NCBI GenBank assembly: GCA_019096065.1 | Contig: JAGUCH010000005.1 | Span: 4,836,001-4,900,000 of the forward strand | Direction of reading: 5' to 3' | DNA from: Paracyclopina nana | Taxonomy: Eukaryota > Arthropoda > Copepoda > Cyclopoida > Cyclopettidae | Length of the DNA stretch: 64,000 nt | Shown here: positions 21,741 to 60,506 of the stretch, piece by piece | Numbering within the stretch: the first letter of the stretch is position 1 | Layout of the letters: each line of letters starts with the position of its first letter | Position numbers and translations under genes: made by a program | The notes under the pieces: model-generated | What the model was told of the DNA's origin: nothing | Seen by the model: only the letters and a program-made list of their open reading frames with translations | Database searches by the model: none

Positions 21741-24700
21741 ATGGACATTGACGCCGCAGAGCAGCTATTTTTGTCTTGTGACAAAGACCGAGATGGCTTC
21801 ATATCAAGGTTTGTAGCTCTTTTTAATGCAGCCATTAATTTCAATCGATCTTGATCTCATCTGAGGCCACCTCACAAGCATGGGAAAGTTAGCTGTATGT
21901 TTTATGCTAGTCGGTAGTTGGGTCGTTTGAATGCATTAGCTTCAACCACTACCATTTTGGGGTAAAAAATGTCCACGTTTTACCGCAAAGATAAATGTTG
22001 GTATAAACGACTAGTGCCGCTCTTTTGAAATTGCGCTATTTGACCTCCTCCTCTGCTAATGGCAACTTTTTTCTCCTCAGATGTCATCCATTAGAGGAAA
22101 GGGTCCATTAGCAATTCATTTATTCGCTGTTTTTCCTCTCTTTGCGCCAAATGTACTATTACAATGAGTAATGATAGGATCATGCATCTTACGCTGAGAA
22201 AATTATAAATGGAGCATTTTCACGCTGGATGGGTTAAATAGCATCACTTTTACGCTGCTCCTGTACGGATTAAAAAGGAGAGTTAAATAAATGTTACCAG
22301 CACGACTCCCATAAAAAAGGATTGCATTGGTATACTAGTTTACGAACTAGGTGTGTAATGGGGTATTTATCGAGCTGCTGGCACTTCAAAAAAAGGAAAG
22401 TTTAATTTAGCTCCAAATTGGAGTTTGAGTTTTGTATTTTGGAGCCTTGGGTTTCATATTTTTTCAACAGATGGCGCTCCTGTTACATGCTTTGGACTTA
22501 ATTTATTTTGTTAATCACCCTTAATTCAATTGGATTTATAAGAGTGTATTCATAGCCTTTGAGCGTAAGTGATGGGAGCATTGTATGCATGGGATTTATG
22601 CACCAGATTTTCAAGCTAGCCCTGAGCAATTTGCGGGAGGGAAGTTTTAAAAAAGAACCCGCTAATGATTTGTGTGTATAGCAGAACATTTGGCAAAGCA
22701 AAGTGGAGGGGGACAAAAAATAATGATGGAGCTCCTCAGCTGATGACTCATTTTATTGAGTTTCATTTGGATTTTGGCAGGCCCAAGGTTTTTCTCTGAG
22801 CAAGTCAAGCTGGGCCAGCCTTACACATGTAGTACATGTGTGTGATGCTAGGCTGTGTGCACATGGCTCGACTTTCAGCTGACTATACCCAAATTCACTC
22901 TCACCCCTAGGAAACTTCAGTTCACTTCCACTCACAGCGTACAAAGCAGCGTCAGCTAAGGCAGCTTAATTCGTAATATTCGGGGGTAAGATTTGCCAAT
23001 TGGTCCCTTTATCAAAGTTAATTTACATAGTCATGAAAATCACCCTCAAAAAGCCTGTATTTTATTAGTTTTCTTGGGTGACCTTTAATTAAGGCCTATT
23101 TTTCATAGTATAAATGTGTAGTGGTAAACTCTTGTTTAAATAGGCTATACCATAAAGCATAGATCTTGATACGTGTGTAATAAAAGATTGTAAAGGTCAA
23201 ATCTCCATTTTTAGGAAAGATTTAGAGGGTCTATGTGAAGAGTTACAACTGGAGGCTTCCGTGGACGAGTTGATGCAGCAATTGGGCGCAGATGACCAAG
23301 GAAAAGTTGGCTTTGCTCAGTTCCTTTTGTGCCACAAGCATCTCGATTTGGGCCCTTCTGGTCACACTAATCCCAACATGACGACGACCGATCATCATCA
23401 AGGTGTGTGGCGCAGGAGGGAAAATAAGGACAGACCCAAAACTGCCAGGCATTGGGACTGGCTGGGCCAAGCCATGGATAGTTCAGTCGTGATTCCATTA
23501 TTACCTACACCGGAAAAGAGCAAGGAGCAATTACTGCTCGAGAGGAGGCAGCAAAAACGGCTCGAAAAATCAGAGCCTCAGGTAAACTTTGGACCTCCCA
23601 TGATGCAAATGTGTAGCAGTATAAAGCAGAGAAGCAAGGACGAAACTTTGCCTCTCTTTGATCTTTGTGAAGGATACCATTATGCTCCCAAAAATATTGT
23701 ATTGATCCACTAGATACACATAAGCTACCCCTATGTTAGTGCCACACGTGTGCATTTTATTTTTTGTGTGTCTCCAGCATAATTTGCCCGTTTATATTCG
23801 CTGTGTGACGTGACTGAGTCCTATCCATATTTTGTCTCCAAATCCGCGCCCAAAATATAGCTGTCCTAGTGAAAAAACCTGCAGTTAAAGATTTCCCTGG
23901 AGGAATTTGGATAATTTTAATGCATTTCTAGAATGCCTGCCAGATGGAGCATCATGCATTGTCGAGATGCAATGAATATAATTTGAATTGCAAAATTGCT
24001 CTTCTAATTGCAGCAGCCAAAGCAGGGAGACGAAGATGAGGAAAATGAGGAAATTGCTGACTTGACACGTCAGTTGGCCAAAGTCACAGCCCAACGGGAC
24101 GAAGCTCGTAAAAACGAGGATTTCGAGTCCCAATGCCAAAGATACGAGGAGAAGATCGTGGAGCTACATTCCGTCATTGCGGAATTATCGCGGAAACTTC
24201 AGTGCGGCAGGGAAGACATGATTCCCGAAGAATCAGAATCATGTGTGACTGATTCGTGCATTGAGGAAGAAGACGAAGAGGATGACATTGAGGGAGTGGT
24301 GGGAATAAGCAATAAAGAGAGCAAAAAGTTTCTTGACGAAAACAGCGTTGCTTTTGAGCGAGACATCTCGAGCCATAATGACTTTGACGAAGAGTACATT
24401 GAGGAGCTGCAAAACGAGGTTGCTGAGGCGAAATCAGACAACCAGAAATTACGACAAGTTGTGGCCCAGCGAGATCGTGAATTGGTTGAAAGTGACGAAG
24501 CTATTCGAAGGTTGCAGCACGAGCGTGAGGCTCTCAAAAGACAATTAATAGACCTGCAATCCACGCTCGAATTTCAAGAGGCCAAAATGGACCGAAATGG
24601 AAGGTCGTCAGCAGAACGCAGGAGTCTGCGAAAAAAGAAATCCACTGGAGCAGCAGCCAAACCTTGCATAACACCAACCTCACCAGAACCATCTGATTTC

Positions 24701-26801
24701 ACGGTAATAATTTTTTCGTGCTACAGTAGATGCCATAAAACCTAGCAGCACTTTCCAAATCGCATCAACAAGATAATGCGTTGTTTGGATAGCTCTCAAG
24801 AATTTATTGCTTTTGTATGCTCTTGGGTGACAGTTAAATTTGATGGCAAAAATCAACATTTCACTGTGGCGCACATTGATGATGTCTGCCACTTTGCTCC
24901 TGTGTATATATGAATAGTATTTCCAAATGCATTACGGTCAAAATATGGTGCCAGTGATGTGACAGGAGCACAATAGCCCAATATGATATTTGAATGTGTT
25001 CCTTTTACTCTACTACAGGGCTCTGATAACAGAAGCAGGGGCAAATTGTCTCCATTTGGGCAAGTCCAAGAGCTGGAACTGGAATTGGCCAAATGTACGA
25101 GCCAGATTGACCATTTGAAGTCCCAAAATGATGTCTTGGAGCTGACTCTGGACGATGCCAGGTCGACGAGCGAAAAATTGTCCATCCAGTTGGCAAGGCA
25201 CGAATCGAATGCTACTGCCATGCATTTAGCATTAGCATATGCTGATCAGGTAAACAAAAAGAAGCCTTCTACAATGATACAACATCAATTTCGAATAATA
25301 TATTATCTTTGCATATCAAGTCATGCAGCTGCTTTAGTTAAAGCATTCAATGCTCGAAAAGAGCGTAACGCACTCAATTATTTTTTCCTGCTAACCTTGA
25401 CGTCAATTTTCCACCACGAGCTCCAATACCTCAAAAATAGTAGTACGAACATTCATCATCAGGATATCCAAAAATTAGATATGTCATCTCCTCTGGCTTT
25501 AATTAAAATTCGTGCAATATTTTTTCCCAGGCCATCGAGGCTTATGATGTGCTCGTTGCTCTTTTGGAAACTGAAGTGGCCTCAAAGGAGGCCGAGGGTG
25601 ATCCCAAAAAGGCCCAAGCCAATAAGAGGTCAGCCTTGTCAGTAGCCAGGCATTTAATCTGTCGTTACGACAAGACATTCCAAGCTCATCATCATCGAAC
25701 AGATTCTGGCATGGGCTACGGCTCTTCGTGGGAGGCCGACAGTTCTGGATACAGCCACACGACTACTAGGTAATGGGCAGCATTCATTATTAAATGCATT
25801 TCAAATGCCCCCACAGGCCACACTTTCATCCAGCTTCTCTCTTTTGTGTTTGAATAATTGCGCTAATTATTTTATTTAGCTCCTCGACCACCTCGACGAC
25901 TTCCTCCACGTTCAATGACGAACTTTTGCACCAGCACAAATCCGAAGAAACGAGGCTACGCGAGCACATTTGCCAGCTCAAGACCATACGAGCCACGATT
26001 CAGGGCACAGTCGTTGATTTGGAGCCAGTGCTCAAGAGCAGTTGTTCAGCAGGAGTGGCAAAAATGGCTGCAGCAGCGCACCACAGCGATCATTTGTACA
26101 AAGAGGAGCAAATTGAGGCTGCTGTCATCAGGCAAGAGTTGATGGCAGCCAAAGAAGAAATTGCTGACCTCAAAGCGAAAATCTATGTTTCTGAAAAGGA
26201 GAAACTAGGTTAGGAGCAAATGGGGAAAAAATGTACTACTATACAGGTATACACTAATTGCTTCTTCCTCTTTTCTCAGGTCTGGAGCTCACGGTGAAAG
26301 AGAGGAGATCGATGGAAAGCATGCTGAGAACTCACTTAAAACAGCTCCAGGATCAACTTAACCCCAATCCTAGTCACAACTCCATCACCGAGGAGGTTTT
26401 GAGGCAACGCGTGGATAATTTGCTCGAGACGCTGGATAGCGTCATACGCAATTCGGATTTGCGTCAAACGCAATCCAACGATCTGATAGCCGACCTCAAA
26501 CGAGCAAATAGGTGAGCGGTTTTTGCGCAATTTTCTTTACGCCTTGGGAACTTTTTTGTCGGACAACAATGAGGCGCCAAAATCACGGAGTTCAATTGTA
26601 ATTCCAAATGAATCCTCCCACAATGCAATGACATGTTCATGATGCGGTTTACCGAAATTGACACGCAACAATTTTTTTTCCAGCACTTTGAGTGAAGCGT
26701 TGGATAAAACCAAGCGGAAGTATCAGTCAAAGATCAAGAGATTGGAGCAACAATTGACACATCAAGCTCAACAACTGCCAACTGCGAGTAACGTTTGCTA
26801 A
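21741..26801 (+). CDS. MCC: MCC homologue with N-terminal EF-hand (paralogue 1)
   Basis: Eight exons: 21741-21808, 23215-23581, 24014-24703, 25019-25249, 25531-25769, 25880-26208, 26280-26511 and 26684-26801, giving 757 aa with all phases consistent. Residues 14-25 form an EF-hand loop (D-K-D-R-D-G-F-I) followed by a degenerate second hand (GADDQGKVGF), as in the long vertebrate MCC isoform. Then come coiled coil with RYEEKIVELHSVIAELSRKL, an acidic stretch, the MCC signature HLKSQNDVLELTL (from 407), the split AIEAYDVLVALLE, a Ser/Thr-rich linker, RQELMAAKEEIADLKAKIY, and the final LKRANSTLSEALDKTKRKY. Human MCC is a cytoplasmic coiled-coil protein tied to Wnt/NF-kB signalling, cell migration and secretion. 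The vertebrate C-terminal PDZ ligand (TSL) is absent; this protein ends SNVC. It shares strand and family with the gene at 50335-60506. Confidence 0.9.
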
Positions 26802-36823: not shown

Positions 36824-39800
36824 ATGTCATTCCAACAAACAAATAAGCCCTTCGGCTACAGCAGCCCAAGGACCCCAGTAGCAATGGGCTACTATGGGGA
36901 CAATTTCGACCATGTAAGCAGGCCACGAGCACCTGTCATCGAGACCAAATATGTGCTGAAGAAAAATGGGCCCATGGGCACCACAAGTCAAGCCAGTGCA
37001 GCCGCGTCATTCTTCGCCAAGGCCCACCAAAGGCTGCAAATGAACATCACGAACGAGGCTGGTGGCCATGGGGCCTTTGGCAATAACAATGGAGATGAGG
37101 AAGAAGATGAACGCCAGTCATTTCCTACCAATTTTAGGGCAATTGTGCACCGTTCGCCACCCCAGGTGCCAAGCAGTCTACTGAAAAAATTGGAGCTTTC
37201 ACCTTCTGCTGCTGATCAAGTGGGCAAGATCAGGGTTCTTTTGAGGGTGGCGAAAAGCTCTTCATTGCTCAGCTCCCCTGATGGTGACGTTCTGGGCAAC
37301 CAGATCTTCCAAATGGACAGAAGGAGAAGGCAGCTCACCATTTACGACCCCACAATGAGCAGAGTGTCCTCCATTGATCTCGAGGAAAGGAAGGTGGGCG
37401 TGGCAGCCCCCAAAATGTTTGCATTTGACAACGTCTTCACTGACCAGGATCCCCAAGAAGATATAGCAAATAGTGCACTGACTGATGTCATAGCATCTGT
37501 CGTCAATGGCAATGACGGTTGCCTGTTTTGTTTTGGACATGCTAACCTGGGTAAAAGCAGGTCTATGCTGGGATCAGACGAGAGCTCAAAATCCATGGGG
37601 ATCATCCCTATTGCCATAGCCTGGCTCTACCGGGCTATCAAGGAAAGAAAAACAAGGTAATTTAGAGTGAAGCACGTTGTCCGCACCAGCATCCATATAA
37701 CTCTTAAATTTCTTGCAGAAGTGGAGCAAGATTTTCAGTCAGGGTGTCAGCCCTGGAAGTGACCAGCCAAAGAGAAAATCTGAGGGATTTGCTCGAGCCC
37801 TACAACTCAGATAATGATCAAAGTCCAGGCATGTACTTGCGAAATCTGCCTGTCAACAGGCCGGCCAGTGCTACGGGTCAGCCGTCAGCTGCTGACTATC
37901 TGGCCAATCAGAGCGAGCTCAGGGCCTCGTCAGCTGACAAAGCTGCCTTTTACCTAGACGCAGCCCTGGCTGCTCGGTCAGCTGACACTAGAGGGCGTGA
38001 GAGTCACCTATTGTTCACCCTGCATGTGTATCAGTATACAGGTGTGTCAGGGGGAAGGTCAAGGCTGCACTTGCTTGACTTTGGAGGCTGTGAACGCTCC
38101 AAGACCCCTGGGGGTGGGATTACCCTATCCGGCCTTGGAAATGTGATCCTGGGCATTTTCAATGGTCAGAAGCACCTGCCGCACAGGGACAGCAAAGTGA
38201 CCCAGTTGCTTAGGGAGTGTCTCGGATCACTGACCTGTCAGGCCACCATGCTGGCGCACGTGTCACCCGAACCTAGTCGCTACTCAGAGACTTTGCACAC
38301 AGTGCAACTCGCCTCTCGACTCCACAGGCTGAGGAGGAAGAGGCTGAAATCTTCTTCATCCAGGATCAAGTCATCAAGTGGGTCAAGGTCTGGATCAGGC
38401 AGCTCGTCAGGCTTGACCACTTCCACAAATGCATCCTCCTCAGAGTTCTCTTGTGACACTGTGGTCTACAGGGGCCACTCTGATGGTAGTGGAACTGACA
38501 GTGAACATCCTCCAGGACTGATGCTGTTGCGAACAAGTCGTAATGGATCACTGGACGAAATTCCAAGGCCAGCTAGCGGAAATGGCCATAGGAGGAAGAA
38601 GATCTTGACAAATGGGGCAATTTCTCCGCGGCAATGTCTCTCCCCGTTGCCATACATTTCGCGAACAGCTCATCACGGCTTGGCCAGTCCTATGCCAGGA
38701 TCTTCCCTGTCAGGCTCCTGTTTGCCAGCAATCCCAGAGGTCGTACATTCAAGCAAAATGCCGCTCAGTGGGCTTGTCCCCGCTCAATCTAGTCACCGTC
38801 TTCGCATGCAGCAGCAGCAATTTTGCAATCAAGAAAGTCCCAGAAGACCACTGCTGCACTACCAAGCACCAGCACCTTCTTCAGAAATGTGGTTAGACCA
38901 GCAGCAGCCAAATTGTGTTCCTCAACAGCAGCAGCAGCAGCAAATGATTCAGCAGCGAAAAGTCAACTATGGCTACATGGACATGCACAAGGCCAGCATG
39001 ATCAATAATTGGGTGGAGACTCAGTCCGTCAGTGGAGAGTCTGTTTTTCTCACCCAATTCAAGCAGGTGGAGAGTGATGAGAATGTCAACAGCGTGGAGC
39101 AGCAGCATAAAGTGATTGTTCATCATGAGGAGCAGCCTCAAATTGCAAAAGCTGCCAAGCCCAAGCCTCCCCCACCACCTCCCAGGAGAACACCCCCCAG
39201 AGAAACTTCACTTGTCTTCAACATTCCAGAGACGATTCCTATGATAGATGAAATCATCGAGGTAAAGGAGGAAATGACCAATGCTGTTCCCACGTCGGCT
39301 GAAATGTCTTGTCAGGTTGATGAGCAGGATCTCAGAGACGAAGACGACGAGGAAGAATGCTGCAACGTCCCTGCTCCACATCCACTACGAATTTTAAGTG
39401 AGGAAAATTTGACCATTGTGTCCAGCTTTGCAGGCAGCCTTAATGAGCTTCCTAATGACGAGGACGAGCTGCGAGACGACATTGTCGATCCGAGCAAATT
39501 GTCCTTTTTCAAGGTCCCTGATTTGAGTCACATCGGTGACCAAACGGACAGGATCATGCAGACCTTCAGGGAGCTCGAGGAAATGCACAATTGCAAAAAT
39601 AACAATGAAACGAGCCGAGAGTTCAAACAGGCTGAGGAGGAAGGCAATAATGATGTCTTGGACACGAAACCCAAGATGACCGAGCTCATTACCCCACAGA
39701 AGCAATTCTTGCTACTTTCCCAGAGTCTGAGGCATCCTGATGGCTCATCCAATCCTGAGCTGAATTTCATGATGACTGAGAAAATTCCCCAGAGGTCACC

Positions 39801-40605: not shown

Positions 40606-40606
40606 A
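40601..40606 (+). terminator. AATAAA overlapping the Kif26 stop codon
   Basis: AATAAA spans the TAA stop (40603-40605). Another AATAAA is present near 40957. Which one is used cannot be told from sequence. Confidence 0.35.
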
Positions 40607-43600: not shown

Positions 43601-46600
43601 TGGCGGCTGACCAACTGAGCACAAAAAGAATTTGTACAAATCGTAGGCTAAATCTTGTTAGGAGTTTGGCCAGGACTCGCAAAGCCACGCTCGCGGTACT
43701 TTGGGATGCTTTTAGAGATTGAATTAGTGATGCACAAATACATTGTAAGTGAAGCTTAATGTTCCCAACATATGTGTTTCGCCCATTACTATATATACGT
43801 GCCTCCTTCCGAAAATTGCAGCTAAAGTCGTCGTATGTTCGCGCCCGCGGATACGAAATTATCCTCTAACCATTTGTGTAAATTATGTTGTTTTTCATTA
43901 GATTAGGGATAAGGTCTGAATGCTGCTGGTGGCCACAGATGGTGCTGTAAGTAGGATCATTTAGGTATTATCGAGAACCAAAAACTCATTATTTCCACTG
44001 TGCTCTGATATGAAACCAAGTAGAGCGAAATTGCGATAATGGACGCGTGTGCAGATGCAGTGGCCGGCTTCATATATGCTAATCCAAGCGGCGCCAACAG
44101 CAGCCTTGTATTGTTAGCACCTGTCAAAAAAATGAGGGTGGACACGCCCCTAAAACTTTTTTCAACACTTAGGGAAATCAGTGATTTTCGTGTGCAAATG
44201 ATGTAACAATGGCGTCGCGCTTGTTGAAATACGACTGCTAGCTGTACAAATATTCCTTTGCTGTTCGTACGTATATTATATTTGCTATACATGTTCTTCA
44301 ATTTGCGACGACGTTCGATTTGCTTGATTTATTACCATATGATGTGCACGTATAAAAACGCGTTTTTTGGGATAGATGTTTGCAAGGAGCCCTCTTCGGT
44401 CATAAGAAGATAATCAGCAAATTCGTAACGCTACTCAAGAGTCCACTTTACCAGAATATACTATAGATGATAAGGCCCGAGTCGGGGCACTTTTTATCGC
44501 ATCCAATAGATAAAGTTAGTGAGGCGTGCATAAATAGCAAAACCACTGATATCCATTATACCAAGAATGCGGCTTTTGCCACTTTCAAACAAAGAACGGT
44601 TCGAGGAGAAGTGGCCAAAAATGGCAAGCGTTTTTATTGCATTGTGGTTTGAATTTGCCTTATATGGACTCGATCGGTGCTAGCCACAAAAAAGAAGAAG
44701 AAGACAATGGGCGATTCTTTTGGCAATATGAGTTAATTCAGCCGGAAAGGATTTGGAATGCAGCTCCCCCATTTGGGACTTGGCTTGAAAAAAAGACACC
44801 AAAATAATGGCCAACAAACATGGAACCCATAATTTTGGAGGCTTACTATTGTAAGCGTATAAAAAGCTTTTCATTTAGGTCTCTGTTTCTCACAATTAAA
44901 TGTGGGGAGCGAGAGAGAGAGAGAGAGAGCAAAAAAGCAGCAACCGAAAACACGCAAATGGGTGGTGATTCTCATGTGCAGCCGTAGTAGTCTTTTAACC
45001 CTTTTGATTATTGACCCCTTGACTGTTTTCATGCGAAACAATCCAGACTCGCGCGCATTCCTTCTGCAAGTTTTGCTTGCTCAAGCAGTCCAATTTCATT
45101 AGCAAACAATTTAAAGTGCTCAAATGCAAATAAAACCACGTGGTCAATTTTCCCTCTCCAGTTTCAAAAAAGTCAACAGGTGAAAAAGCCATTAAAGCGC
45201 GACCAATGCATTTACTCCAAGGGGTTTGTAATAGAGCAGTGGTTAAGTCATTAAAAAAAAGATTGAGCCATAAATCTGGCGCAATGTGTGCAAAATGAAA
45301 AATCACACCAAAATTGGTACGGGAAAATAACAGCAGCACAGAGTAGCAAAAATGAGCTGAAAAACAACAACATGTCCAAGATCATTACTCTGGCTGCTCT
45401 CGTGCTGTGTTGGCATCTATGAAATGGTTACTCGTAAATATCTCTGCACCATCGCGAATGATAATGACCCTGGATCCCTGTCTGTACCAAGGAGGGATTG
45501 GAGAGGCTGCCAGCCCCTTTTCTCTCAAGAAAGCAGGGATCGGAATGATCATAAAACAGATGAGTCATCCTCGCGCACTGGTATAGTTCACTTCTTCTTC
45601 CATGCATCCATTGTTGCTCAATATCAGCCAACGTGAGAGGACCCCAATATGAGATAAGTGGAAACTCGCACAACCGAGCGTGAAACAAAAAGTTTTATCT
45701 AAATAGTTCAAGGTTTTGATGATGCCCATTTTCGTCCTCCTAATTGGCTGAGTGTGTGTGCTGAAATGCTCTTGATAAGGGATAATGATTATGCATGGGT
45801 GGGCTGATTTGACGAGACACCGCGAGCATTTTTTAGGGTGGCTACTTTAGCTTTTCATATGCTCAAATGATTAGGAATTTTTTCATATTCTTCAGAGAGA
45901 AACAGTTCTGATGCAGCAGACGATTCAGTGGCCGTGAATTATGGCCTTACGTCAAACCAATAGAAAGAGGGAGCAAGAGATCCCCATGAGCAGCTACTAT
46001 TATATTGCTATAGTGGTGACGCACCCAATTTTTTCATGAAAGTCCAATCTCTATTTAATATTGCTCTGGAGACCTGGCAAACTGGTACACCAACTCCCTC
46101 AAAAAGTGGTGTTGTGAAAGAAAACAATATTTCATTCATGGTGTACTATATGGGAAACTTTCGAGGGTCTAAAGTGGCAACATTAGAATTTTAATATCAA
46201 AATGGCTCGACAGCTAGCTTTATTGCGGAACATAAGTACTCATTCAATGCACTTTTGAGAGCATTTGTTCGAATACATTGTAAAAAAATTCGTCCCCTTT
46301 TTTAAGGACCATGTGAGAAATATTTGAATATGCGACATGTCGAAATATAATAGGACTTGGTCTCAAAATAGATATACAATAAGAGGAAAGCCGAATGCAG
46401 TTGAAGTTATTATGCTGATAAGCCAGATTTGTCAAGCTCTCAGTCAAGTTGAACGGCCAAGAATTGAAAATTCATCTCCAGGCCAGGAGCTGACAGACGC
46501 ATACGTGCACACTATTTTGGGAACGGACTTATAGTATATATCGTAGAAGCCGTATATGGCCGTTGAAGCAGCTCCATGCAGCTTTCTGCCCAGAAACGAC

Positions 46601-49600
46601 TTATTTAATGTAAATAATCTCAAGCTATTTCGGGGGCAGTAAAATCCGCCATTTGCCAGAATAAAAGGTACTTCTTCATCCCCAAGCCAAGCTAAGTGAG
46701 TCGCCCCTTGAGAGAGTAGCCATTTTTGGAATAATTTAGTGAAATTGAATAAGAGTTGGTGTCAAACAGCGTGAGGTATTTTTGTAAACTAAGAACAGCA
46801 GTAGCTACTTGCGTTGCGCGAGATAATTATGGAGCATGGGAAAAGGGCTAATTATAACAAACAACGAACATAAATTACGACGTTTCTCCAATTATTGCCC
46901 ACTTTGTGAAGAAGATGGCTTCATTTGATATATCTTTATTTATTGTTATCGTGATTCAAGCAATTATAGCGCATGGATGGAAGGGGCGTGTTCAAAAAAC
47001 GTCATCAGGGTTGCCAAACGACAAAGTCGATTTATATGCACGCTAATAACGTTATGGGCGGGTCATACTTGTCACTCATAAATGCTCTGGATAAAATGAA
47101 TTCAACTTGTAACCTAACAAATATGGTGAAACCCTTAAAAATGGCCATATTCTCCATTTCAAAATACTAGCTTATGATTCTTAAAGGTACATATGTACAA
47201 GTCAAATGTGTACATACTAATTGAGCAACATCAGCTTTGAGTAGTTTGTTTGCCAATTTCAGCACATATATGCTGTACTTGCAGCAGTATTTAGCATTGG
47301 CAGGCTTCTGGCAAAGATAAATATTTGCTAAATCTAGACGTAAACCTACTTGTTCGCATCTTCAATTTACAAAGAGATCAGAGAAAAAATGAAGCAAGCC
47401 TGTATAGCACACGATAATATGCCTCAATGGAAAAGTGAAAAATATGGTGGCTAATGGCGTTAAGGATCATGCGAAGCAAATGCAGTGAGGAAAAAAAGGC
47501 TAATTGCCGTACAAGCCATCATTCTTTTTCCTGTAGCTTCTTCGTCTTCAGCTGCCATGTTTAGGGGGAAGAATGCAAAAACGAGTGTCGTCTTTATCGT
47601 TTTGCAACGATTTTCGGAGGAAAGCTCTTTTGCTCAACCCCTACCCTTATTTGCATGTAGGTTTGAGGGTTGCGTGACGCGACTCTGTTTTTTAAACCGT
47701 GAAAAGTTGCGTGGCAATTTGCTGCCACTTGAACAATTGATTCCACGTAATTACATTGGCCCTCAGCTTCTTGCTCCTAGTATAAAGAATAATTGTCCCA
47801 ATTAAACATTGTATTCGTCATGAAAAGCATTCATGAGACGCACGCGCGCGCATAATATTAATTTTGTAATTAGATATCCTGACTTGTGAAGTGTTTTCGT
47901 TTGAATTATTGTGATGCAGCGAGAGCTTTGAAGTGAAACTTTGGAGCTCAGATTTTGAGCTTTTGTTGACCCAGGTGACATTTTTAGCCCTCCTCCACAC
48001 TCAAGTGATGTGACAAGAGCATTAGGGCAGAACATGACCTGGCCGATGATAAAGTAAAATTTCTGCAACAACCGACGACAACAATCTGGGAAAATCCTCC
48101 TCAATTTGACCATGCTACAATCCTACGCACAAAGATATCTTTGTCTACTATCCTTCAGTCGTGATTTCGGTTTAGCATAACCGAGCAACTTCAGCAAGAA
48201 AAGATGATTTTTTCTTAAAGCCCACCACGGTGTATTGTGGAATGCTGTTGAATATAATTGAAAAACTGACACCTTTTCTTGAAGCCCATTTTTGTGGTGG
48301 GTGGAGTCGTTTTTGCTGTAAACTCGCGCACTGATTATTCAGTAAAAGGCTTTTTTCGTGCCTACTCCTCCTTTTTCGAATCGAATGCACACTTTAATGA
48401 TGTAATAAAATAGTTTGCGGGCAAAACCCTATAATCAGCCACAAATCACATTTAAGTTAATTTTGTAAATAATTATAATTTTGCCACTCTGTCACATACG
48501 CGGAACTTTACGTGAAAGCACACGCAACCTTTCACCACAATTCTTTATTTCCATATAATTCCACTTAAATAACGCTGATAACTAAATTGCGCTTCAAAGT
48601 TTGTCAATTGAGCATGTCTAGACTTTTGTGCATACCCTGCGCTTGTACAGCAATTCTCAACTAGTTTATTTGTCAAAGATTAATTTCACAAATTGGAATC
48701 AAGCGGGTGTAGCAATAGATCGAATTGAGCTTGGAACTCTCGCTGTAGCTTGAAAAAGCAACACAAGGACCCTTGTCAAAGTGGGAGTGAACGTCAAACT
48801 CGAAGCTTGAATGAATGCGCTCCCCATCACTTTGATAAACATAGCTGAAAATCAGAGCAGATGGCCCAAATCAATTCTTCTTGAATTGGGGTGTGTCTGT
48901 TATAGTATATAGTATAAATCGTGACTTACCGTCCATGCTCTACCAAATCATGAACTCCCAGCCAAAATCCACCCGCATCAGGAAATAGCCTATAAGCCAC
49001 TTCATACACTTTTTGGGCAATTGTTGCGTTGGCTGGCTCAAAAAGCCTTCCACCCATATCGTTGCAATATTCCATGGACTGAAAAATGGTCTTCCCGTCA
49101 AAGATGTAGGGGAAGTAGAAGCAACTGTTGAAAATCTTGATCCAAGATGGCGGACAAGAGCCTTGAAAATGACAAGCTATCAGGCAGGAAATTCAATATT
49201 TTTTCTTTACCTGGGTCGCACGTGTTGCCCAAAAAGGTGTCGAGTTTTCTCAAAAAGCTGGGATTTTCGACGAAAATGTGCTTGCTCATTTCCACAATGG
49301 CCGCGCTGAGATGGCAATCCGTTTTGGGATTTTTCGCGCCAAATATGGACGGCGGGACAAAGAGCACAACAATAACCTGTTTGTCGGGAGCGACTGCATT
49401 TTTTTAAGGCGAAATATTGCGATAAAGATACCGATAGCGCATTATTACCCAAAAGAAGCTTGTGGCCATGTTGACACAAGTCGAAGGTTTCCACAACACT
49501 AAACGAGGAGTAATTTTTCCATTGATCTGAGCTATATTCTACGCAATTACTGCAGCAGTTGAGAGGCCGAGCTCAACTCTGATTTTTGCTTGACACATGT

Positions 49601-50334
49601 CGCGCTTCATTGTGTGTCTTTTTTGCAGAAAAAAGGTAATTACCTCAGCAAAGAAGAAACTTTTCCCCTTTTTTATAACATGCACATTCCGTGCATGCCA
49701 ACGCATTCTTCAATATAAATTACAAAAGTTGTATTTTCTCGATAGACACCGACCGAAAAAAATTCCCCTTTCAGTTTCAGGAAAGTTGGAAATGCATTGA
49801 AAACATTGCTGCGATGATAGCGAACAATATGCTTGTGTGTGTGTTCAAAGAAGAAGAAAGGAAATCCCCCTCATGAAGCTTCTATAATAGTACGACTTTT
49901 CTTTTAAAGTGTCTTAAACCTACAATTTATGGGGATTTTTTGCTAACAACCCTCCTATATAACCATTCGCTTTTAAAAATCTGGCTCATTCAAAGGTATA
50001 ATCTTTAAAATCTTTTTATTGTCCTTCCAACCCTTTCTTGAACACCATATCTTCAGAATAGGTATAAGGAAGCTAATGGCCATTTTAAGTCGATTAGATT
50101 GTTCATTAGGAGCCGAGAGAGAGAGAGAGCACTTTAAGTCTCCTTTCATTTGCTATCTATTTTTGAGATGTATCGGGTCAGTGAGCATTTGTTTCGTTCT
50201 TATCGTGTTTCGCGTCAGCGCGGTTGCGCTTTCACATTTTGCTTCGAGGGTGCAAGCGCTTCTTCTGCTTCCCCTTTCCTCTGCAGTCCACGCTCAGATT
50301 TTGGAGGACTGACTGGCAATGTGAGCGAGCAGAA
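40607..50334. other. Long non-coding region between Kif26 and MCC paralogue 2
   Basis: Nearly 10 kb without a supported gene. It holds a (GA)n run at 44911-44929 and CTG repeats near 41360. No RNA gene was recognised. Confidence 0.5.
44911..44929. repeat. (GA)n microsatellite
   Basis: About nine GA units in intergenic DNA. Confidence 0.85.
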
Positions 50335-53300
50335 ATGTCGTGTTTTGCAGTTTCGAGATTGTTGAGACACAAAGAGGCCTCCCCAATTCAAGAGAGCATC
50401 AATGGGAAAAATGGCCACGTTAGCAACAGGGGATCGCCCAAATCTCGCCAAATGCCCAACGTGGAAATTGTGCAAGAGGTGATGCTACCACAAAGGGAGG
50501 CCTCAGTGACTCCAATAGCTCCATCAAGCCCTCAATTCCACCAGCATCAGCAGCAATATTACTACCAACGTCACATGAGCCCCCACAGAAGTTGTTCAAG
50601 CTCAGTTCCACCCAGCCCAGCTCTTTCAGGATGTCGTAGCCCTTCCAGACAAAGGAAAAATCCTTACAGCACCCTTGAGGCAAGAAAATACTAAAGATAC
50701 AGTAGTGGTAGTTTTTTATTGCAAGATTAGTGTCATCTATGCTAATGCATACAATAATTGGGACAAGGACGACGTCACGATGCAGTGATTAATTAGGCTA
50801 ATGCTATCTTATGTTTTCTAAGGGAAGACTACTGCATTTCCTCGAAATCATCTGTGTTCCAAATGCCAGCATGAATCAGTTAGCAAGCTTAAACAAACAA
50901 AAGAAGAGCTCGCAGCACACACACACACACATTTTGAAAAAAGGGGTGCTTTTCTAAAGATGAGGAAGATGTGCTACTTTCATAATATACCATGTAATTG
51001 AAGGAAAAGCAATTTTGCAGCTAGCTGAGCTGAGGAGGAATGCGCGCGGTAAACTTTCGTCCAAGTCAATACAAAAAGCTTCAATGCGGATGGAAGTGCG
51101 CGAGAAAAATTGTCGAAAACTTTTTCTCTCTTGGCCCAGCCATTACCTAATGTCGAAAAGTTTCCATGCTTGAATGGGAGCCTAGTTAATGATCCGTTTC
51201 CACACGAGCGAATCCATAACTAGGCTAGCCTTGATGGAATACATTCATCTATTATATTATACTAGTAAATGTGGAGCTAGGTTCCAATACACCGCAAAAT
51301 GGAAAGTCAAAGCTTTCAGGCAAGTCATGATGTGGGCGGTTGGAGGAATTTCCAAAGAACCGAGTTTTTTAGCCTCTTTTCCGAACAACAACACTTGGCA
51401 AAAAGCTGCATGTGTGGAGGAGATGTTGTTTGGCCGAGTTGACCACAGTGGGACTCAGAAACAGCAGAAGCAATTCCTTGAGTGTATTTACTTATGCTGA
51501 TGCATGATGGTCTCGTTTTAGTCAATTTGCTATGTACATAATTGTTTGCCAAGCTAAGAGCCAACGCTGCTCGTCTTTGCACCAACACTCTATTTCATTT
51601 TCCATGACTATGCAGGAATGTTAATGGAAAATAAGCACGAGGTGAAAACTTTTCCAATTTTCTATTTTTGAAGCTTTCCCTTCGCAGGCGATATAATTAT
51701 GCTGTTTCTGCCAAGAATGTATAGACTCAATTTGTCAAAATTCGAGCTCTCTTTTGAGGCTCGAGAGCAAGCTCTCAAATTCTTCTATTATTATTCTTGG
51801 CTCGGAACCCAAGGTTAATCTCAGGAGATCAACTGAAATTGGCCTGCTTTCTTTTATTCTTGCGCTTCTAGCAAAAATCATAATTAATTCAATTTGTCTG
51901 CAATTTGTATGCCGAGGACGACCTCGTAGCTTTCACCACCACGTACATACTATAGCATCAGGCACCCCCTAAAACCAAAAGTATTTTTCTAGTATTTGTT
52001 TTCCTCCCCTGCTGCTACGTGCTGCCCCCCTGAAAGAAATGTCACAACAAAGTATTGGGTGTCTTTTTTTTATCTGTCACACTGCTCGCGACGAGGAAAA
52101 CTTTTGCTAACTCTAAGTAAAAGCTTCATAAAGAGGGCAGCTAACAGCAGCAGCAGATGATTTTTCCTCTTCCCCTCCAACTTATCTTCCTGGAAACTTC
52201 ATCAGTCGACCAAGTAATGAAATGTTCTCTAGAGCCTGCCTCTTCAAAGCAATTACTCACGCACGAGTCTTCCAAGTTTGTTTATCAGCAACTTTTGATA
52301 AATTGGTTTTTCTCCACGCAGTGAGCTCAAGTTCACAATTATGCTGAACTATTTCATGCTGAACTTGAAGTTAAGCTTACTTGGCAATGAGTCAGCACTA
52401 AAGAATCACTCAAACGCTAAAAGAGCTGTAAAAAGCAAATAAGTGGAGCAGCTTTTGACTCTTTGAGGACGCAAGCCCATTTTTCCAACAGGCTTTCATT
52501 AATTGCTGCGTTCCAGATTTTTCAAAGGAGCTACAGCCAAACTACAATATAGTAGGGTAAAAAACCACGCTTTTGGCAACGGACAGATTCATTAATTACA
52601 CTCAATGCTTATTCACAAAAACCTCACAAAATAACTCGAGTTCTCGCGAGTGAGAAAGCAAAAAAGGCTTCTTCTGCCATCATAATGGCCAGTTCATCTA
52701 TTGTAGAGCATTTCCTGGCTGAGCTCAGATGAACGCCCCCTCAAATCTTGAAAATAGGAAAGATGAAAGGAGAAAAGCCCAACGGTTTTTCAATAGCTCA
52801 TGCCAGCTTTCCCTGTTTGATTTATGCTTTGAGTAAATCCTTTTGCCATACCCTGGCTTTCTCTTTGTAATTATAGACGCTAAAAAGGGAGGCTTTTTTT
52901 GAGGAGGCTGACTAAGCAAAATCTTTATCTTTAGCTGCTATGCTGCTTCGGGTCTTTCATGCAAATTATGCTCTGGCTTTCTTGCTGTGCATAGCATATT
53001 ACACCATTTTTTGACGTTTTATGAGCTGGTGTCGTTCTTGTCTTACTGCTACTTCAGTGCTCAACCCTTTTATCTAAAATGCCACTTGCTTGATGTGTTC
53101 TAGCATAGCCAGCTAAACAACAGGGCGACCCACAGGAATGTTTTTCTGCCCATTAATTTTGTCCTGAATTATTTCAAGTATGAGGAAACATTTTGGAGTG
53201 TGTTCATTCTTGCCCTGTCACTTAAAGCGACTCACCTTGTTTGCAGTTCACAGCTTTTTGAAAGAAAATCAATAAAAACTCAGTAAAGTAATTTTAGAAA

Positions 53301-56300
53301 GAAGGCAAACTTTTTTCTTTCTGTAAAATCTAGATATAGTAGCATAGAAAGCAGCTTCAATTACAGGCTTTTCAGCAATGAGGTGCTGAAATGTGACTGA
53401 CTATAGAATGCACAGATGTTTATAAAAGTAGCATAAAAAGAAGAGCAAACAAAGATCTTTCTGCTGAATGAGAATGCTCAGCTTGACTTTAGCTCTCTCT
53501 CAGCCTGAAATCTCTTACCCCAGCATGTGGCTTGTTCTAACCTTCTTAGCTAATGGCAAAAAAGTTTTCTCAAAAGAAATGTCTTCACTCTTTCTAATTA
53601 GATTTTGCTACAAAGTATATGATAGCAACATACAATAAATCTGACAATATAACATGCATGTGTATCAGTTTACAGTGCTTATTTTGCCAATTATTGCTGA
53701 TTTTTCCCCTCTGCTGATGGAAATGCAGCATGATTATCCCAAAATGAGCTTTCTTTGTCCTCTATCTATTACTCGCTTGATATCCAGGGTTTCCATGGCT
53801 GGCTGCTGTAATTGAATAGAGTGTGACAAATATGGGCTGCCATTTTTTACCAGACAAGTGTGCTTTTGGCAGCCATAATCATAACTATGAATGAGTTATG
53901 GCCCCCGTGGTAGTGTTTTTGTTTCAATTATTGTAGTGGCAGGAGGAAGACGGGCAGAGAAACGAAAGCTGTGTTATTATATTTGGTACATACGAAGCAA
54001 GGCAGGAATGAAATGGCTGCGTTTACTGCTTATGCACAGTGGGGTCATCTCATTGCGAAAAGTGGCGTTTGGCGGGATAGTGATATATTCTAGTACTTAA
54101 TGCCCTAGGCCTTTCATACGTACATTAAAGGCCTAGTTTTTTAAAAAAATTGACTCTAATTGATGATTTTCCATTGAAAAGTGCTTTAAAAACGGTTTTG
54201 TCTGCTATTAATGAGTTTGTTATTGTTTTGAATATTCAAAAAGGGCTGCTGAAGTCGGCAAAATGGGCTCAGTGAAAACTGTGATATCTCAAAATGGCGC
54301 CAAAATGCGCAAATAAAACTTTGTCATAATGATTTCAGGTATTCAACTGAATGTTTTATGCAAAAATTGTTGAGGAATTTTGAGGACTAACGAGCAAATT
54401 AATATTTGAAAATGATTTAAAAAAGCTTAACTTCAGGGTCCCCCTTTCGCGGAAAAAATTGAGCGAATCGCAAATTTCCAATAACAGTTATCGTAGTATG
54501 TAATGTAACCAAAATTTAATTTTAATGCCACAATCATGATCCTATTACTTTCGGCCTCGAAATTTCCAATTTTTAACTACCGTGTTTTCAGTGAGTTTGA
54601 AAGATGCTGCCATTTCGCGAGATTTCCGAACGCCACTTTTTGCAACGGGATGTCCCCACTGTGTTATGGCGCGCGATCTGTTTTTTCAGTCTATTTACTT
54701 AATGATGTAAAAGAGGGGTAAAGCAAGCGAGGAAAAGCAATAATAAACGATGATGATTATGATGCCAGCCAAATGCTGTACATAGACGAATATATATGTA
54801 GTAGTACGCTTAGTATATATAGCACTGCTATATGGGGGGAGATTTTGGCACAATTCTGGCATTGTCATAACTCATACTGACTGCTACATACCAAATCGAA
54901 ATGGTGGTCCAAGCAGACAAATGGCCAATATTGAGCACTGTACATAGTCCTAGCTTGCCATGATGATTCATGGACGCGCAAACAAATTACACCACTCAGA
55001 AATTGTTTTATTCAATCAGTACTTGTTGTAGTACTTGTGATGCAAATGCTGATCATTTGTCTATTTACGCTTTAATGTGGCGCAATTCTTGTTAGCTCCT
55101 ATTGATTCTTTAGCATTTGCTCGTTTTTGCCCAATTTATTATTAAACGTCGTACCCCCTGTTGGCAGCCCACACCCACTTTTCTATAGCATACTGTACAC
55201 GTATGTAGCCTTACTGTGCTTCATTTCAATCTGAGCGTGGAGTGGGCTTTCGCATGAGTCACCCGGTGCTGCACGCTCACAATTCCTAATGGTCATGGAA
55301 GGAACTATCAATTTTGCCTCCTCCACGCACTCACTACTGCAGAGGAGAAGTCAAGCCCAAGTGTCCAAGCAAATCGAAGAACCAAGAAAAATGCTCCCTT
55401 GTCACGAACTAATATAAAAGCTCGCAGTAATTTGCACGTAGCTTAGTACAGGAGGCGTTAATTAATTATGATCAATTTCGGTTGATATTCTTGCGAATTG
55501 CGAGCGTTGTCTCAACCCCTTCAAAGTATCCTGCAAATTAACATATTGAGGTCATAAGGGAGGCGAGAGAGAAAGTAGTAGTGGTTGTACTGAAAATCTG
55601 GGACTGAACAGTTTGTAAATGCACAGTTCATCCCTCCTTGCAGGGCTGGATTAGAATACTTTGCATAAGTGTTCCCTACTGAATAGTTATCCAAACCAAC
55701 AGAAGCAGAGGAAGGCTGCAACATCCAGGTTTGTTGGAGAATGGTTTTCAAATCCTTTTTGTGCCAAAATAGCTTTTAAGGGTGGGGTGTTGTAAATAGG
55801 GAAAGGAGCGAAATCAGCTTTTCTTTTTTCAAGGAGCCATTCCCTACAGATGTGCCACTTACAGTATGGGTGCGTTTCATAGTTTCGCTGTGTGAGTGTG
55901 TATTGGCAATTTGGTAATATGCCATAAAAGTAGACTCAAACTTTTATTGTTTCCACATAGTAGTAGTATGAGCATAATACTGCAGCGGCTGGGAAAGGGA
56001 AATCTGTACGTTCTGCGTAAAGCACAGCATCAGCGAAAAATAATGGCTAATGGCTTGGAAAGTTTATTAAGAAAGTTTGAGCCGCTTTCAAGGAAAAGGC
56101 ACTCCTCCTTTGATTGGCCAAGAACTTTTAAGCCACCTTACCTTTTGATGTTTGAAAATGCAATCTCAAGAGCATATTTACTACATATCGAGGCATAGCT
56201 AAGTAAGTTTATTGTGCTGTCCTTTGCAGTCTTCAGAATTTATGAGAGAGGATTGAGTTGAAGAAGAAGCAGAAGCGCAATCTACAAATTCCAGGGGAAA

Positions 56301-59300
56301 AGGCTGTTCTAAGAATGTGGGAGATCGTCATATCATGATAAAGCGCAGAATTTCCTTGAGCCTCATTTTGAATTCAAGATTCACCTCAGGAGTAATACAT
56401 CTTTTAGTAGTACTAGCGCAGGTTTTGGACGCGTCTGAGCACGTGGTAGATTTTCACCCTCTTACTCACATCATATCCATGCATGGAGTAGGGATAAAAG
56501 TTCATTTGGATTCCTACAGTCTTTTATTATAATAGACGTGGTTATGCACAGCCTCATCTCTCTCTCTCGCACAAAAAAGTTGTCCTGTCTTTTGTGTTCA
56601 GGATGAGGAAAATTCGTTACAGTTATATTTGTTGCAACTGTATGAAAGACGCTAGCTGATAAAGTTGGACGTCGTCAAAAGCGCGACATTTTCCGGAAAA
56701 TTGGCTAATGAAGATGATTCGCAAAGGGAATTGATCAGTTGGTGTGAAAATGGCTAATAAGCAACAACTAAAATGCCAAATCTGCAATCGCACCTATCTA
56801 ACTCAGCTGCAGCTAAAAACCCACGTGTGCGACGAAGGAACTAGTGGGCAAAATGTCGCATATGCGTGCAAGTTTTGCTCGCAAAAGTTCAAGAAAGGCA
56901 AGAAAGAAATCATTGGACATTTGAGGAAAATCCATATGTGCATCTACTGCACAACCCTGACGAAAAGCATGGACTGTCCAAATCAGCTATGCAGGAATTG
57001 CGAAAAAACCTACGGATTGTGCAAGCTTCAGCTGGAAAAAGTGAAGCTCGAATTGAGTGAGGCCAAAACGACTTCTTCCAATGTTTGCAACATATGCAAA
57101 CTCAAGTTTGAGGATGCTTTCGACGTCATGTCGCACAAAATGATGGTTCATTAGAAATAAAAATACAAAGCTAGAATAAAGCTGACCATATCCCTTGGGT
57201 AATCATAGGATTGGTTACAACAAAGGATGACGCATATAGTCATTGTGATAATTTTGTTCACGCGCGCGCGCGAGCACGCCACACTGCCATTTATCTTACC
57301 TTGTTCGTTGTTTAAGTAAACTATAGGGGCTGTTGTTGTCTGCCACAACCCCCTTCTAAAGTGATTATTTCAAGTTAATGGCTGCCATAGATCACGCCAA
57401 GGTGTCTTCTTATAAAACATAATGCTTGCATGAAATTGCAATTTTGCAAAGCAAACTATAGCATGTTTAGCCACTTAAAGTCCATATACTAGAGGTTTTC
57501 GAGTCCCTTGGGAGCAGTTAATCTGTACATAGCCGCGCCGAAATTCATGAGCCATAAAATGGAAATTTTTATGAAGACGAGGACGAAAATCTTGGTGAGT
57601 CCCCGACGGCGAATCGATAAAAGTGATCATCATGGTATCATCCTCCCTTCCTTCGTAGTTTGATATGGGGGTGCTATCGTCAAATCTGAGTTTACGGTCC
57701 CTCTCTTCTATGGGATGATGTGGACTTTTTTACAGCCATTGGCTCATGGGGAGAAGGAGGAGCAGGTGGTGCACTAAATGTGCGCGTCAGCCCAATTTAC
57801 GATCAAGATTCCGCTTCCGGAGTCATTACTTCTTGGTAGAAAGCCATTTCCTGATGCGCGATGGTCACCGCCGTGAAATATTGAGGGATTAGGACGTTTC
57901 AGGCTGATAACAAAAAGCCATCGTTTCAAGGCTTTTCTAGGGAACACTTTAATTCGAGGAGGAAGTTCATTAATTTTTCAGAAAAACAACATACTACATA
58001 GAGAGCTGCAATTATCGAACGCGTCGCGGATCAATAGTTTTCCATTATTATTAATGCTCTCTCATGACTCACTGCAATTTTTCACAGGTCCAAAATGCAG
58101 CCCTGTCTGCGATGAAAGAGGAGATGCTGGAATTAGCTGCGAGACTCACTCGAGTGACCAAAGAACGGGATTACTTGGAGAAAGCCCTCAACAGATTGCA
58201 AGTACGATCCTCCTCCTATTTAAATTGCGCAGAATTATGCAATTACATTTGTACTTAGCTGGAAAAGTTGCGGATGGCCAAGGAGAAAGACGACCAACTC
58301 GATTGCACGACAGTCAGATATGAAGAGAGACTCGTGGAGCTGCATTCTGTGATAGCAGAGTTGTCCAGGCAAGTTGAGGACAGAGCCAGAGATCAAATCA
58401 ATGAAGAGGACACTGAGGATGAGGACGAGGAGGACACTGTCAACCATGGAGTGGCCGTGGCCTCCAGAACCTCAACTGAGGTCAATGCCCAAGCTCTTGA
58501 GGTCGCTAGATCATTTACAAAACTTTTATTTCGAGGAATTTATCAATTCTAATTTAGGCCGGGCAAAGGCTGGTGGAGCAACTGGAAGTGAGTGGCAGTG
58601 GGCAAGATTTGTGTGCATTTTTGAGAATGTCCCGATCCACAGCTTCGCAATCGATGCACAACTCTTCCACGACAAGCATCCAATATTTGGCTCTTCAAGA
58701 GGAGCTCGCAGATGCCAAAGAAAGGAATGTTCAATTGGCCGCTAGGCTTCAGCAGAGAGAAGCCGACCTCAATGAGGCCAGACAGGACCTGGAAAATTTA
58801 GCGAGGGAGAAGGAGAACTTGCGAGAAAAAGTTAGCTCTCTGGAGGAAAAACTTATTATGGCCCCTGCTAAAAGTCCAGTCAAGAAATCTGCTTCCAATG
58901 ACCCGAATCTGGATGTGTCTCACCTTAAAGTTGCAGAGAGGAAGAAAATCAAGAAGATTGAGGAGGAGCAAGACACTGACGAGGAGGGCAATTTTCAAAG
59001 CCATGGACAAGTGACAGGCTCAGATTTGCAGGCCATCGGAGTGAGAAATAGTGTAGTCGTTGAACATTTAGTTCAAGATCTGCAGGACAAATCTTCAATG
59101 CAGGAATTCCAGGCCTCTTTTTCAGCAGAGCAACATCAACTGCTTCGATCTCCGCGACGAGATTTGGGCATAAATAACAAGCGAAGATCAGCATTGCTGG
59201 AGAGCAAATTGCAAGAATTCGAAATCGAGATGGAAAGATTGAGCAGCAGAATCGAGCATTTGAAGTCTCAAAATGAAGTGCTGAGTTTGACACTGACAGA

Positions 59301-60506
59301 GTCGAAAAACCACTGTGATAATTTGACAGTACTAATTGGGAAATACGAGTCCAACCATACTGCTCAGCACTTGGTGATCACTTACTTGGACCATATGATT
59401 GAAACCCTCGAGGTACTCGTAAACTTCCTCGAGGCTGAGCTGGGGCTCAACCAAGCATCAGGAGGCTCTAATCTGGATCATGCCAAGGAATCGTTCCAAA
59501 TGGCCGAGGCTAATGCCAAGAAGCTGATAAAATTTTTCGATTCAATTTTACGACCCGATTCTGGATTGGCTCTGCAATCCTCCTCTTTGGAATCTGGAGC
59601 ACATTGGGGGGATGACTCATCAGGCTACTCTCAAAACTCCAGCTTGGGATCTAATTCTGGAATAGTGTCTTCGTGTATGGGCAGCTTTGTTTATTCCCCA
59701 ACTGATATCATGGAGCATCAAAAGCCTGAGGAGACGAGGCTTCGTGATATATTAACCCAGCTTAAATCAACAAGAGCATCAATCCAGTCCACGATTTTTC
59801 AAGAGCTTGAAAGCCATTATCCAGAAGCTGATTTGAGGATGGTCAATTCAGAGTCAAAGACTGCTGACTTGGAAATAGCAGTGCTTGTACAAGAACTCAT
59901 GGCCATGCGAGAGGAGAAAGCTGATCTCAGGGCGCAAGTCTATTTATTGGAGAAGGAGAAAAAATCTCTTGAACTTGTCATAAGTTCTCAGCAAGCGCAA
60001 GAGCATGCCTTGAAAACTCACATTCAACACTTGCAAGATGAGCTGGAAAATCAAGACTCAATGGTACTCTCATATGGCTCAAGATTATTCTTTTAAGTCT
60101 TATAAAATATTTTATAGGGTGATGCTGATTCTGAGAGGAGTTTGATCAATAGGAATGATGAGATGAAGTCCAGAATCACCGAGCTGCTGAAAACGCTGGA
60201 AAAGGTGAAAAGAAACTCCGAGCTAAGGCAGCAGCAATCCGAAGAACTCATTTGCGATTTGAAGAAAACTAACGAGTATATAACTTTTAACAAATAACCT
60301 TATCAATTACTATGAATCAAAATCTATTATTTAGGTCGTTGGTGGAAGCACTGGATAAAGTCAAGCAGAAATACGAGTCCAGAGTGAAACATCTTGAGCA
60401 GCAGGTGCTCCAATCCCTGATTCAAGGTCCTAATGATCAAGACAGCCACAAACCTTTGATAAGCTTTTCTAACGACATGTTTAGCAACAAGTCTGATTCG
60501 GATTAA
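50335..60506 (+). CDS. MCC: MCC homologue without EF-hand (paralogue 2)
   Basis: Exons: 50335-50679 (candidate first exon), 58088-58201, 58259-58501, 58558-60063, 60118-60275 and 60335-60506. Total 845 aa, close to the 829-aa short human MCC. The five downstream exons (730 aa) are firm. They include NAALSAMKEEMLELAARLTRV (compare human LHSAALASLKGDIVEL), RYEERLVELHSVIAELSRQ, IEHLKSQNEVLSLTLTESK, IGKYESNHTAQHLVITYLD, VQELMAMREEKADLRAQVY, a linker with DDSSGYSQNSS, and ELRQQQSEELICDLKKTNESL. The first exon encodes a Ser/Pro/Gln-rich, probably disordered N-terminus with no EF-hand; it joins in phase 0 but uses a GC donor (GAG then GCAAGA). The C-terminus (SDSD) lacks the vertebrate PDZ ligand. 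Intron 1 is 7.4 kb and the other introns are 54-59 nt. A coiled-coil signalling or scaffold role is inferred from the family. Confidence 0.88.
54035..54663. mobile_element. Transib-like MITE
   Basis: This is a 629-bp element with imperfect terminal inverted repeats of about 37 bp. The left end begins CACAGTGGGGTCATCTCATT and the right end, inverted, reads CACAGTGGGGACATCCCGTT, with five mismatches over the repeat. It is flanked by the 5-bp direct repeat TTATG (54030-54034 and 54664-54668). Ends of the CACWRTG type with 5-bp duplications are the mark of the Transib superfamily, the relatives of RAG1. There is no coding capacity. A small internal hairpin (CTAGGCCTTT and its complement) lies near 54105-54136. 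Confidence 0.8.
56750..57154 (+). CDS. Small intronless zinc-finger protein nested in an MCC intron
   Basis: A single exon of 134 aa starting at ATG 56750 (context GTGAAAATGG). Zinc-binding clusters: CQICNRTYLTQLQLKTHVC (residues about 10-28, a C2H-type or C2HC finger), CKFCSQKF...HLRKIH (C2H2), a middle CIYC...CPNQLCRNC cysteine group and a final CNICKLKF...HKMMVH (C2H2) that runs to the last residue. No linker of the TGEKP type is present. It is probably a nucleic-acid- or protein-binding zinc-finger protein, but I do not recognise an orthologue. AATAAA occurs 2 nt after the stop. Lack of introns in an intron-rich region suggests origin by retroposition or transposon domestication, which is not proven. 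Confidence 0.75.
   Translation: MANKQQLKCQICNRTYLTQLQLKTHVCDEGTSGQNVAYACKFCSQKFKKGKKEIIGHLRKIHMCIYCTTLTKSMDCPNQLCRNCEKTYGLCKLQLEKVKLELSEAKTTSSNVCNICKLKFEDAFDVMSHKMMVH
57156..57161 (+). terminator. Poly(A) signal of the nested zinc-finger gene
   Basis: AATAAA two bases after the TAG stop; another AATAAA at 57175-57180. Confidence 0.55.
57261..57272. repeat. (CG)6 run
   Basis: Alternating CG tract in otherwise AT-rich intronic DNA. Confidence 0.85.

Follow-up and report, generated by a model that had tools for sequence, protein, structure and literature searches.

The human MCC gene is reported to produce isoforms of 829 and 1019 amino acids from alternative promoters, and both forms are reported to occur in the same complexes (PMC4172902). 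A survey of 12 species describes an EF-hand in vertebrate MCC1, with one exception, and places the split between MCC1 and MCC2 at the vertebrate 2R stage; invertebrates are reported there with a single MCC, and the survey does not decide between an ancestral EF-hand and one that arose in spiders (PMC10418881). MCC is also among the genes listed as lost in nematodes (PMC4568025). In zebrafish, Mcc is described as working with Wnt5a, Ror2 and Vangl2 (PMC4963810); the kinesin Kif26b is described as a target of Wnt5a-Ror signalling, with VAB-8 as its worm orthologue (PMC5590807). The stretch analysed here (the window) is 64,000 nucleotides of the copepod Paracyclopina nana (C5:4836001-4900000; contig JAGUCH010000005.1). 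It contains two MCC-family genes, MCC-a and MCC-b, on either side of a KIF26-like kinesin gene, KIF26-a; a second KIF26-like gene, KIF26-b, lies beyond the window. On balance we favour a single, old duplication in place of an MCC gene together with its KIF26-like neighbour, followed by divergence through loss of different modules.

Two real MCC-family genes are present, both on the plus strand, as the initial annotation had proposed. The genome searched comprises 91.95 Mb in 10 contigs and has eighty matches to PF00379, an arthropod cuticle family; the genome-wide counts and gene order given below come from this one arthropod genome. A PF10506 profile search of the whole genome gave three matches, all inside the window at the two MCC loci. 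Over the whole proteins the matches have E values of 9.8e-24 (MCC-a) and 5.5e-22 (MCC-b); the second, C-terminal PF10506 stretch, scored alone, reaches 32.3 bits in MCC-a and 31.8 bits in MCC-b, with a cut-off of 24.5. A protein search of the genome with the 723 secure residues of MCC-b (E <=0.01) gave seven matches, at the same two loci only. The MCC comparison covers three sequences: MCC-a, MCC-b and a provisional human MCC sequence, used with its tail in the alignments and searches (provisional human MCC below). In this alignment the coiled-coil blocks RYEE..ELHSVIAEL, HLKSQN, QELMA..EE and DLK+.N are present in both copepod genes, which, with the C-terminal PF10506 scores, bears out the earlier statement that both retain HLKSQN and the C-terminal blocks. 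MCC-a and MCC-b are identical at 210 of 598 aligned residues (35.1%). This level of identity rules out a haplotype or assembly duplicate. A retrocopy origin of MCC-b is ruled out by its introns, at least four in number, the last of which matches that of MCC-a in place and phase. Common family membership, the identity and this intron all support the duplication that had been suggested for MCC.

Vertebrate MCC1 resembles both genes in its two PF10506 stretches, a number reported for arthropod MCC too, and in its coiled-coil blocks, and it resembles MCC-a in its reported EF-hand (PMC10418881). It differs in that its two isoforms are reported from one gene (PMC4172902), whereas here there would be two genes. 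Vertebrate MCC2 (USHBP1) is likewise an MCC paralogue, and PF10506 carries the USHBP1 name; a single MCC-PDZ domain is reported for MCC2 (PMC10418881), unlike the two stretches of both copepod genes. The spider Oedothorax gibbosus has the sole EF-hand invertebrate MCC of the survey and is like this copepod in that respect. Set side by side by description, the two differ in that one MCC gene is reported in the spider (PMC10418881) and two are found here.

The kinesin is duplicated too. KIF26-a lies between MCC-a and MCC-b on the plus strand and has two exons (36824-40605, 1239 residues): exon 1 (36824-37656) encodes the N-terminal half of the motor, with the P-loop GHANLGKS, and exon 2 (37719-40605) encodes the remainder of the motor, the tail and the stop. 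KIF26-b is a full-length second KIF26-like gene on the minus strand of the same contig (C5:4926937-4931451), 27-31 kb beyond the window and starting 50 kb past KIF26-a. It consists of one open frame of 1502 residues from the first ATG and lacks the intron found in KIF26-a at window positions 37657-37718. The two proteins show 48% identity over 436 residues and align over their whole length (433 of 1110 residues identical, 39%); RSPGNGRS and RKSSGY are among the short tail motifs that they share. The initial annotation had stated that two MCC genes flank Kif26; the order is correct, and the statement is incomplete because the KIF26-like kinesin is itself duplicated. Pfam finds kinesin (PF00225) in both KIF26-a exons, and its assignment is to kinesin only. 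In their P-loops, GHANLGKS and GHASLGKT, the two proteins deviate from the usual GQTGSGKT, a sequence present in a KIF4-like neighbour. Among the 60 PDB sequences listed, out of 136 that the KIF26-b motor matched, there was no KIF26-named one. The kinesin-11 family (KIF26A, KIF26B and VAB-8) is reported as atypical (PMC5590807) and has two members in vertebrates as well; the copepod copies are unlike these in being local neighbours beside MCC, 39% identical overall. A limited literature search on KIF26 in arthropods and on KIF26-MCC synteny found nothing relevant by title.

Joint duplication of the MCC-KIF26 neighbours is more likely than duplication of MCC alone. When 2054 open reading frames (ORFs) across 164 kb were compared with each other by blastp (ORFs >=40 aa, E <=1e-4), the only repeated gene pairs were MCC and KIF26; short exons can escape this comparison, and kinesin-to-KIF4 matches and repeats were set aside. 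The divergence of the two pairs is also similar. Four-fold sites are identical at 23 of 73 positions in the MCC pair (expected fraction 0.251) and at 55 of 178 in the KIF26 pair (expected 0.264), and both pairs are near synonymous saturation.

MCC-a has eight exons (21741-26801, plus strand) encoding 757 amino acids without an internal stop; the limits 21741 and 26801 given for the gene earlier hold. Exon 1 (21741-21808, 68 nt) contains the ATG, the first EF-hand helix and the loop DKDRDGFIS. Exon 2 (23215-23581) encodes the remainder of the EF-hand pair, with a degenerate second loop, and a linker, and ends in phase 0. Coiled coil containing RYEEKIVELHSVIAEL is encoded by exon 3 (24014-24703), and the first PF10506 domain and HLKSQN by exon 4 (25019-25249). 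Exon 5 (25531-25769) and exon 6 (25880-26208, RQELMAAKEEIADLKAKIYVSEKEK) are followed by exon 7 (26280-26511), which encodes most of the second PF10506 stretch and ends in phase 2, and by exon 8 (26684-26801), with the C-terminus TASNVC and the stop.

The opening EF-hand described in the initial annotation was recovered. Residues 5-60 of MCC-a match the PF13499 EF-hand pair across the junction of exons 1 and 2 with an E value of 4.1e-5, at 24.3 bits against the Pfam curated cut-off of 30; in a phmmer comparison with calmodulin chains, the region has a best E value of 2.1e-8. Inspection shows that Asp at position 12 is the one departure of the first loop (DKDRDGFISRKD) from the canonical form; in the second loop (GADDQGKVGFAQ) the first and last positions are not acidic. 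The sequence of MCC-a predicts no more than one calcium site.

MCC-b is secure as five exons on the plus strand (58088-60506, 723 residues). The first of these (58088-58201) has a phase-0 acceptor and encodes VQNAALSAMKEEMLELAARL with the ALSAMKEEM block; the block VQNAALSAMKEEMLELAARL aligns to the start of the 829-residue form in the provisional human sequence. Exon B (58259-58480) encodes RYEERLVELHSVIAEL. Exon C (58558-60063, 1506 nt) encodes the first PF10506 domain, HLKSQN and QELMAMREE; exon D (60118-60275) encodes most of the second PF10506 stretch, and exon E (60335-60506) ends with the C-terminus NKSDSD and the stop. Exon 58088-58201 goes unmentioned in the initial annotation, as does KIF26-b beyond the window.

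That annotation placed this gene at 50335-60506. The interval from 58088 to 60506 stands; the start at 50335, a Ser/Pro/Gln-rich first exon at 50335-50679 on the plus strand, is unsupported as coding. Its halves have codon z scores of 0.8 and -1.0, where the other MCC exons have 2.1 to 5.8 (n=11). Its period-3 signal is 0.3, compared with 1.6 to 10.8 in nine measured MCC exons and with a non-coding reference of 200 stretches (median 0.88, 90% point 1.81, maximum 3.14); two short true MCC exons reach merely 1.6 and 1.9. GC content is flat across its codon positions. Searched against the genome at E <=1, it matches itself only, and its local alignment with the N-terminus of MCC-a was equalled by 466 of 500 shuffles. 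The codon test is not decisive alone, because a zinc-finger ORF at 56750-57151 on the plus strand (134 aa, C2H2-like), within the 7.4-kb gap between 50679 and 58088, has a Pfam match and scores low too (codon z 1.0; period-3 signal 3.3). This ORF has no close copy in the genome; its next best match has an E value of 2.7e-4 and 26% identity. An in-frame join of exon 50335-50679 to 58088 could use a GC donor at 50680 (GAG/GCAAGA). It could also use a GT donor at 50479 (score 2.4), which would drop the Ser/Pro/Gln-rich half; the score of this GT donor matches or beats those of several donors used in MCC-a. On the codon, period-3 and homology tests together, 50335-50679 is rejected as demonstrated coding sequence, although a coding role is conceivable. 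The observations of the initial annotation are confirmed in part: the two MCC genes, the EF-hand and the intron contrast are upheld, and the start of the second gene at 50335 is not.

No EF-hand was found at MCC-b in the 17.5 kb upstream (40606 to 58088). A genome search with the 145-residue N-terminal module of MCC-a (E <=10, best candidates scored) gave 15 matches, two of which were MCC-a's own exons and none of which lay within 40606-58088; tblastn of the first 68 residues of MCC-a against that interval gave nothing at E <=20. The asymmetry noted earlier, with an EF-hand in one copy and none detected at the other, is real as far as the sequence can tell. A different arrangement would make the locus a single complex one, in which the EF-hand exons (21741-23581) serve both genes and are spliced over KIF26-a to 58088. 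The phase-0 end of MCC-a exon 2 and the phase-0 acceptor at 58088 would allow such an in-frame join, but a 34.5-kb intron enclosing a complete same-strand kinesin gene would be required, and the 12 modelled introns of MCC-a, MCC-b and KIF26-a span 54 to 1406 nt. We consider it very improbable.

The two MCC genes differ in a central module also. MCC-b has a central stretch, GVRNSVVVEHLVQDLQD (GV..SVVEHL block), with a counterpart in provisional human MCC; it is absent from MCC-a, which is unlike vertebrate MCC1 in this respect, and a search for it in the MCC-a interval gave a best match of E 4.9. The C-termini are TASNVC and NKSDSD, and there is no class I PDZ-binding motif in either. A downstream continuation of each gene was sought with the provisional human tail and none was found; an overlooked last exon is possible. 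From their sequences, both genes seem to be without a Scribble-binding tail. The human MCC tail is given as PHTNETSL, and its C-terminal ETSL motif (PMC10333293) is missing in both.

The intron contrast described earlier was confirmed: the region from HLKSQN to ELMA is divided over exons 4, 5 and 6 in MCC-a and lies within the single 1506-nt exon in MCC-b. The last intron is at an identical column and in phase 2 in both alignments, with and without exon 50335-50679. After its EF-hand exons, MCC-a has four (or five) introns without a counterpart in MCC-b, and MCC-b has three without a counterpart in MCC-a; several of the unshared positions sit within or beside alignment gaps. The intron loss proposed for MCC-b is correct insofar as it is without four to five introns of the other gene. 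However, MCC-b has three introns of its own, and loss is not shown because each gene has introns that the other is without. Without an outgroup, the two-gene comparison gives this change no direction. The earlier interpretation is supported in part, as to duplication and the EF-hand asymmetry, and not as to one-sided intron loss.

Several points weigh against a single duplication of the pair. Only one intron is securely shared, and at least one such coincidence occurs in about 4% of random placements (approximate positions); a second shared intron, in phase 0 before the coiled coil, vanished once the unsupported exon was omitted from the alignment. MCC-b is secure only from 58088, so an upstream module may have been overlooked. 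There is no non-coding similarity between the two blocks, where DNA matches occur in exons only. The KIF26 name of both kinesins is our assumption, made from the P-loops and general look. The reading is also drawn from one animal genome, without a tree or outgroup. Finally, KIF26-b is inverted and lies 30 kb from MCC-b, and therefore two separate local duplications would produce this arrangement equally well. Such independent duplications of MCC and KIF26, in a place where both genes were already close, form the main rival explanation, which we rate as unlikely. KIF26-b is inverted relative to KIF26-a, whereas the MCC copies are in tandem, and the spacing is unequal (~10 kb between MCC-a and KIF26-a, ~30 kb between MCC-b and KIF26-b); both features would suit separate events. 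Against them, exactly two such copies per family were found, all inside 74 kb, and the two pairs are similarly near saturation.

The relative distances of the three MCC sequences also count against the favoured account. Over 579 common columns there are 205 identities between MCC-a and MCC-b, 189 between MCC-a and provisional human MCC, and 238 between MCC-b and provisional human MCC, so that MCC-b is nearer the human protein than it is to MCC-a; with the unsupported exon 50335-50679 included, the counts are 218, 195 and 236 of 583. By these counts MCC-a is the most diverged of the three. The closeness of MCC-b to the human sequence could reflect rapid evolution of MCC-a or a duplication that predates arthropods, and the three sequences would decide neither way between a duplication of that age and one within arthropods. 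An ancient pair, older than arthropods, with the other copy lost in most lineages, would account for the pairwise identities (274 of 671 residues, 40.8%, between MCC-b and provisional human MCC, against the 35.1% between MCC-b and MCC-a) and for synonymous sites near saturation. It appears improbable to us: MCC-a is nearer MCC-b than provisional human MCC (205 against 189 columns), and the MCC copies remain close together. The survey of 12 species, moreover, reports one MCC in invertebrates (PMC10418881).

Under the favoured duplication of the pair, an ancestral arthropod MCC and an adjoining KIF26-like kinesin would have duplicated in place, long ago. A later inversion would have turned KIF26-b around, since it points the opposite way. 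MCC-a would have retained the N-terminal EF-hand pair and lost the central block; MCC-b would have retained the central block, and no EF-hand is seen in it. MCC-a may respond to calcium through its one near-canonical EF loop, and MCC-b should not. Because coiled coils and both PF10506 stretches are kept in each, the two should be related cytoplasmic scaffolds, and they could pair with each other. By analogy with the described systems, we infer that they are polarity scaffolds, one of which may be able to sense calcium; the joint event, the order of losses, the calcium response, the pairing and a contribution to non-canonical Wnt signalling or cell polarity are likewise inferred. Partition of isoforms between the two genes is plausible and is compatible with the isoforms reported for human MCC (PMC4172902). 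More tentatively, MCC-KIF26 may be an effector pair of the Wnt5a-Ror type that was copied as one unit, with the EF-hand and the central block then divided between the two MCC genes, and a switch of promoter becoming a choice of gene.

The KIF4-like kinesin, encoded on the minus strand at 12309-15767, contains a KIF21A-like domain and matches CXC below the threshold; its KIF4 name is presumed. Together with the two KIF26-like genes it makes three kinesin genes in ~83 kb. A DDE_Tnp_4 transposase in two open frames (L012:1533-3002, plus strand) lies ~4 kb away from KIF26-b on its 3' side, and could be related to the inversion of that gene. Upstream of MCC-a there is an inverted repeat (17545-18250 and 19413-20118) with 706-nt arms that are 98% complementary and 1162 nt apart; it looks recent and is perhaps a fold-back element. 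Exons at 10023-11529 on the plus strand match PF16040 and PF16041, the N-terminal and middle domains of APD1-4 E3 ligases, which we take to be families named from plants. Scanning the window for tRNA genes and Rfam families gave no match. COX1 had no match in the genome; 7tm_6 insect receptors had none either, and nor did the controls.

The presence in an arthropod of one MCC copy with an EF-hand and one without a detectable EF-hand contradicts a single invertebrate MCC as a general rule. MCC-a is a further invertebrate EF-hand MCC that bears on the question of EF-hand origin. What the analysis adds is that a pair of neighbouring genes, more likely than MCC alone, was duplicated. If MCC-a and MCC-b do the work of the two isoforms, each form would be separately removable in this animal. 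Linkage of MCC and KIF26 in other genomes, if true, would point to co-regulated polarity effectors.

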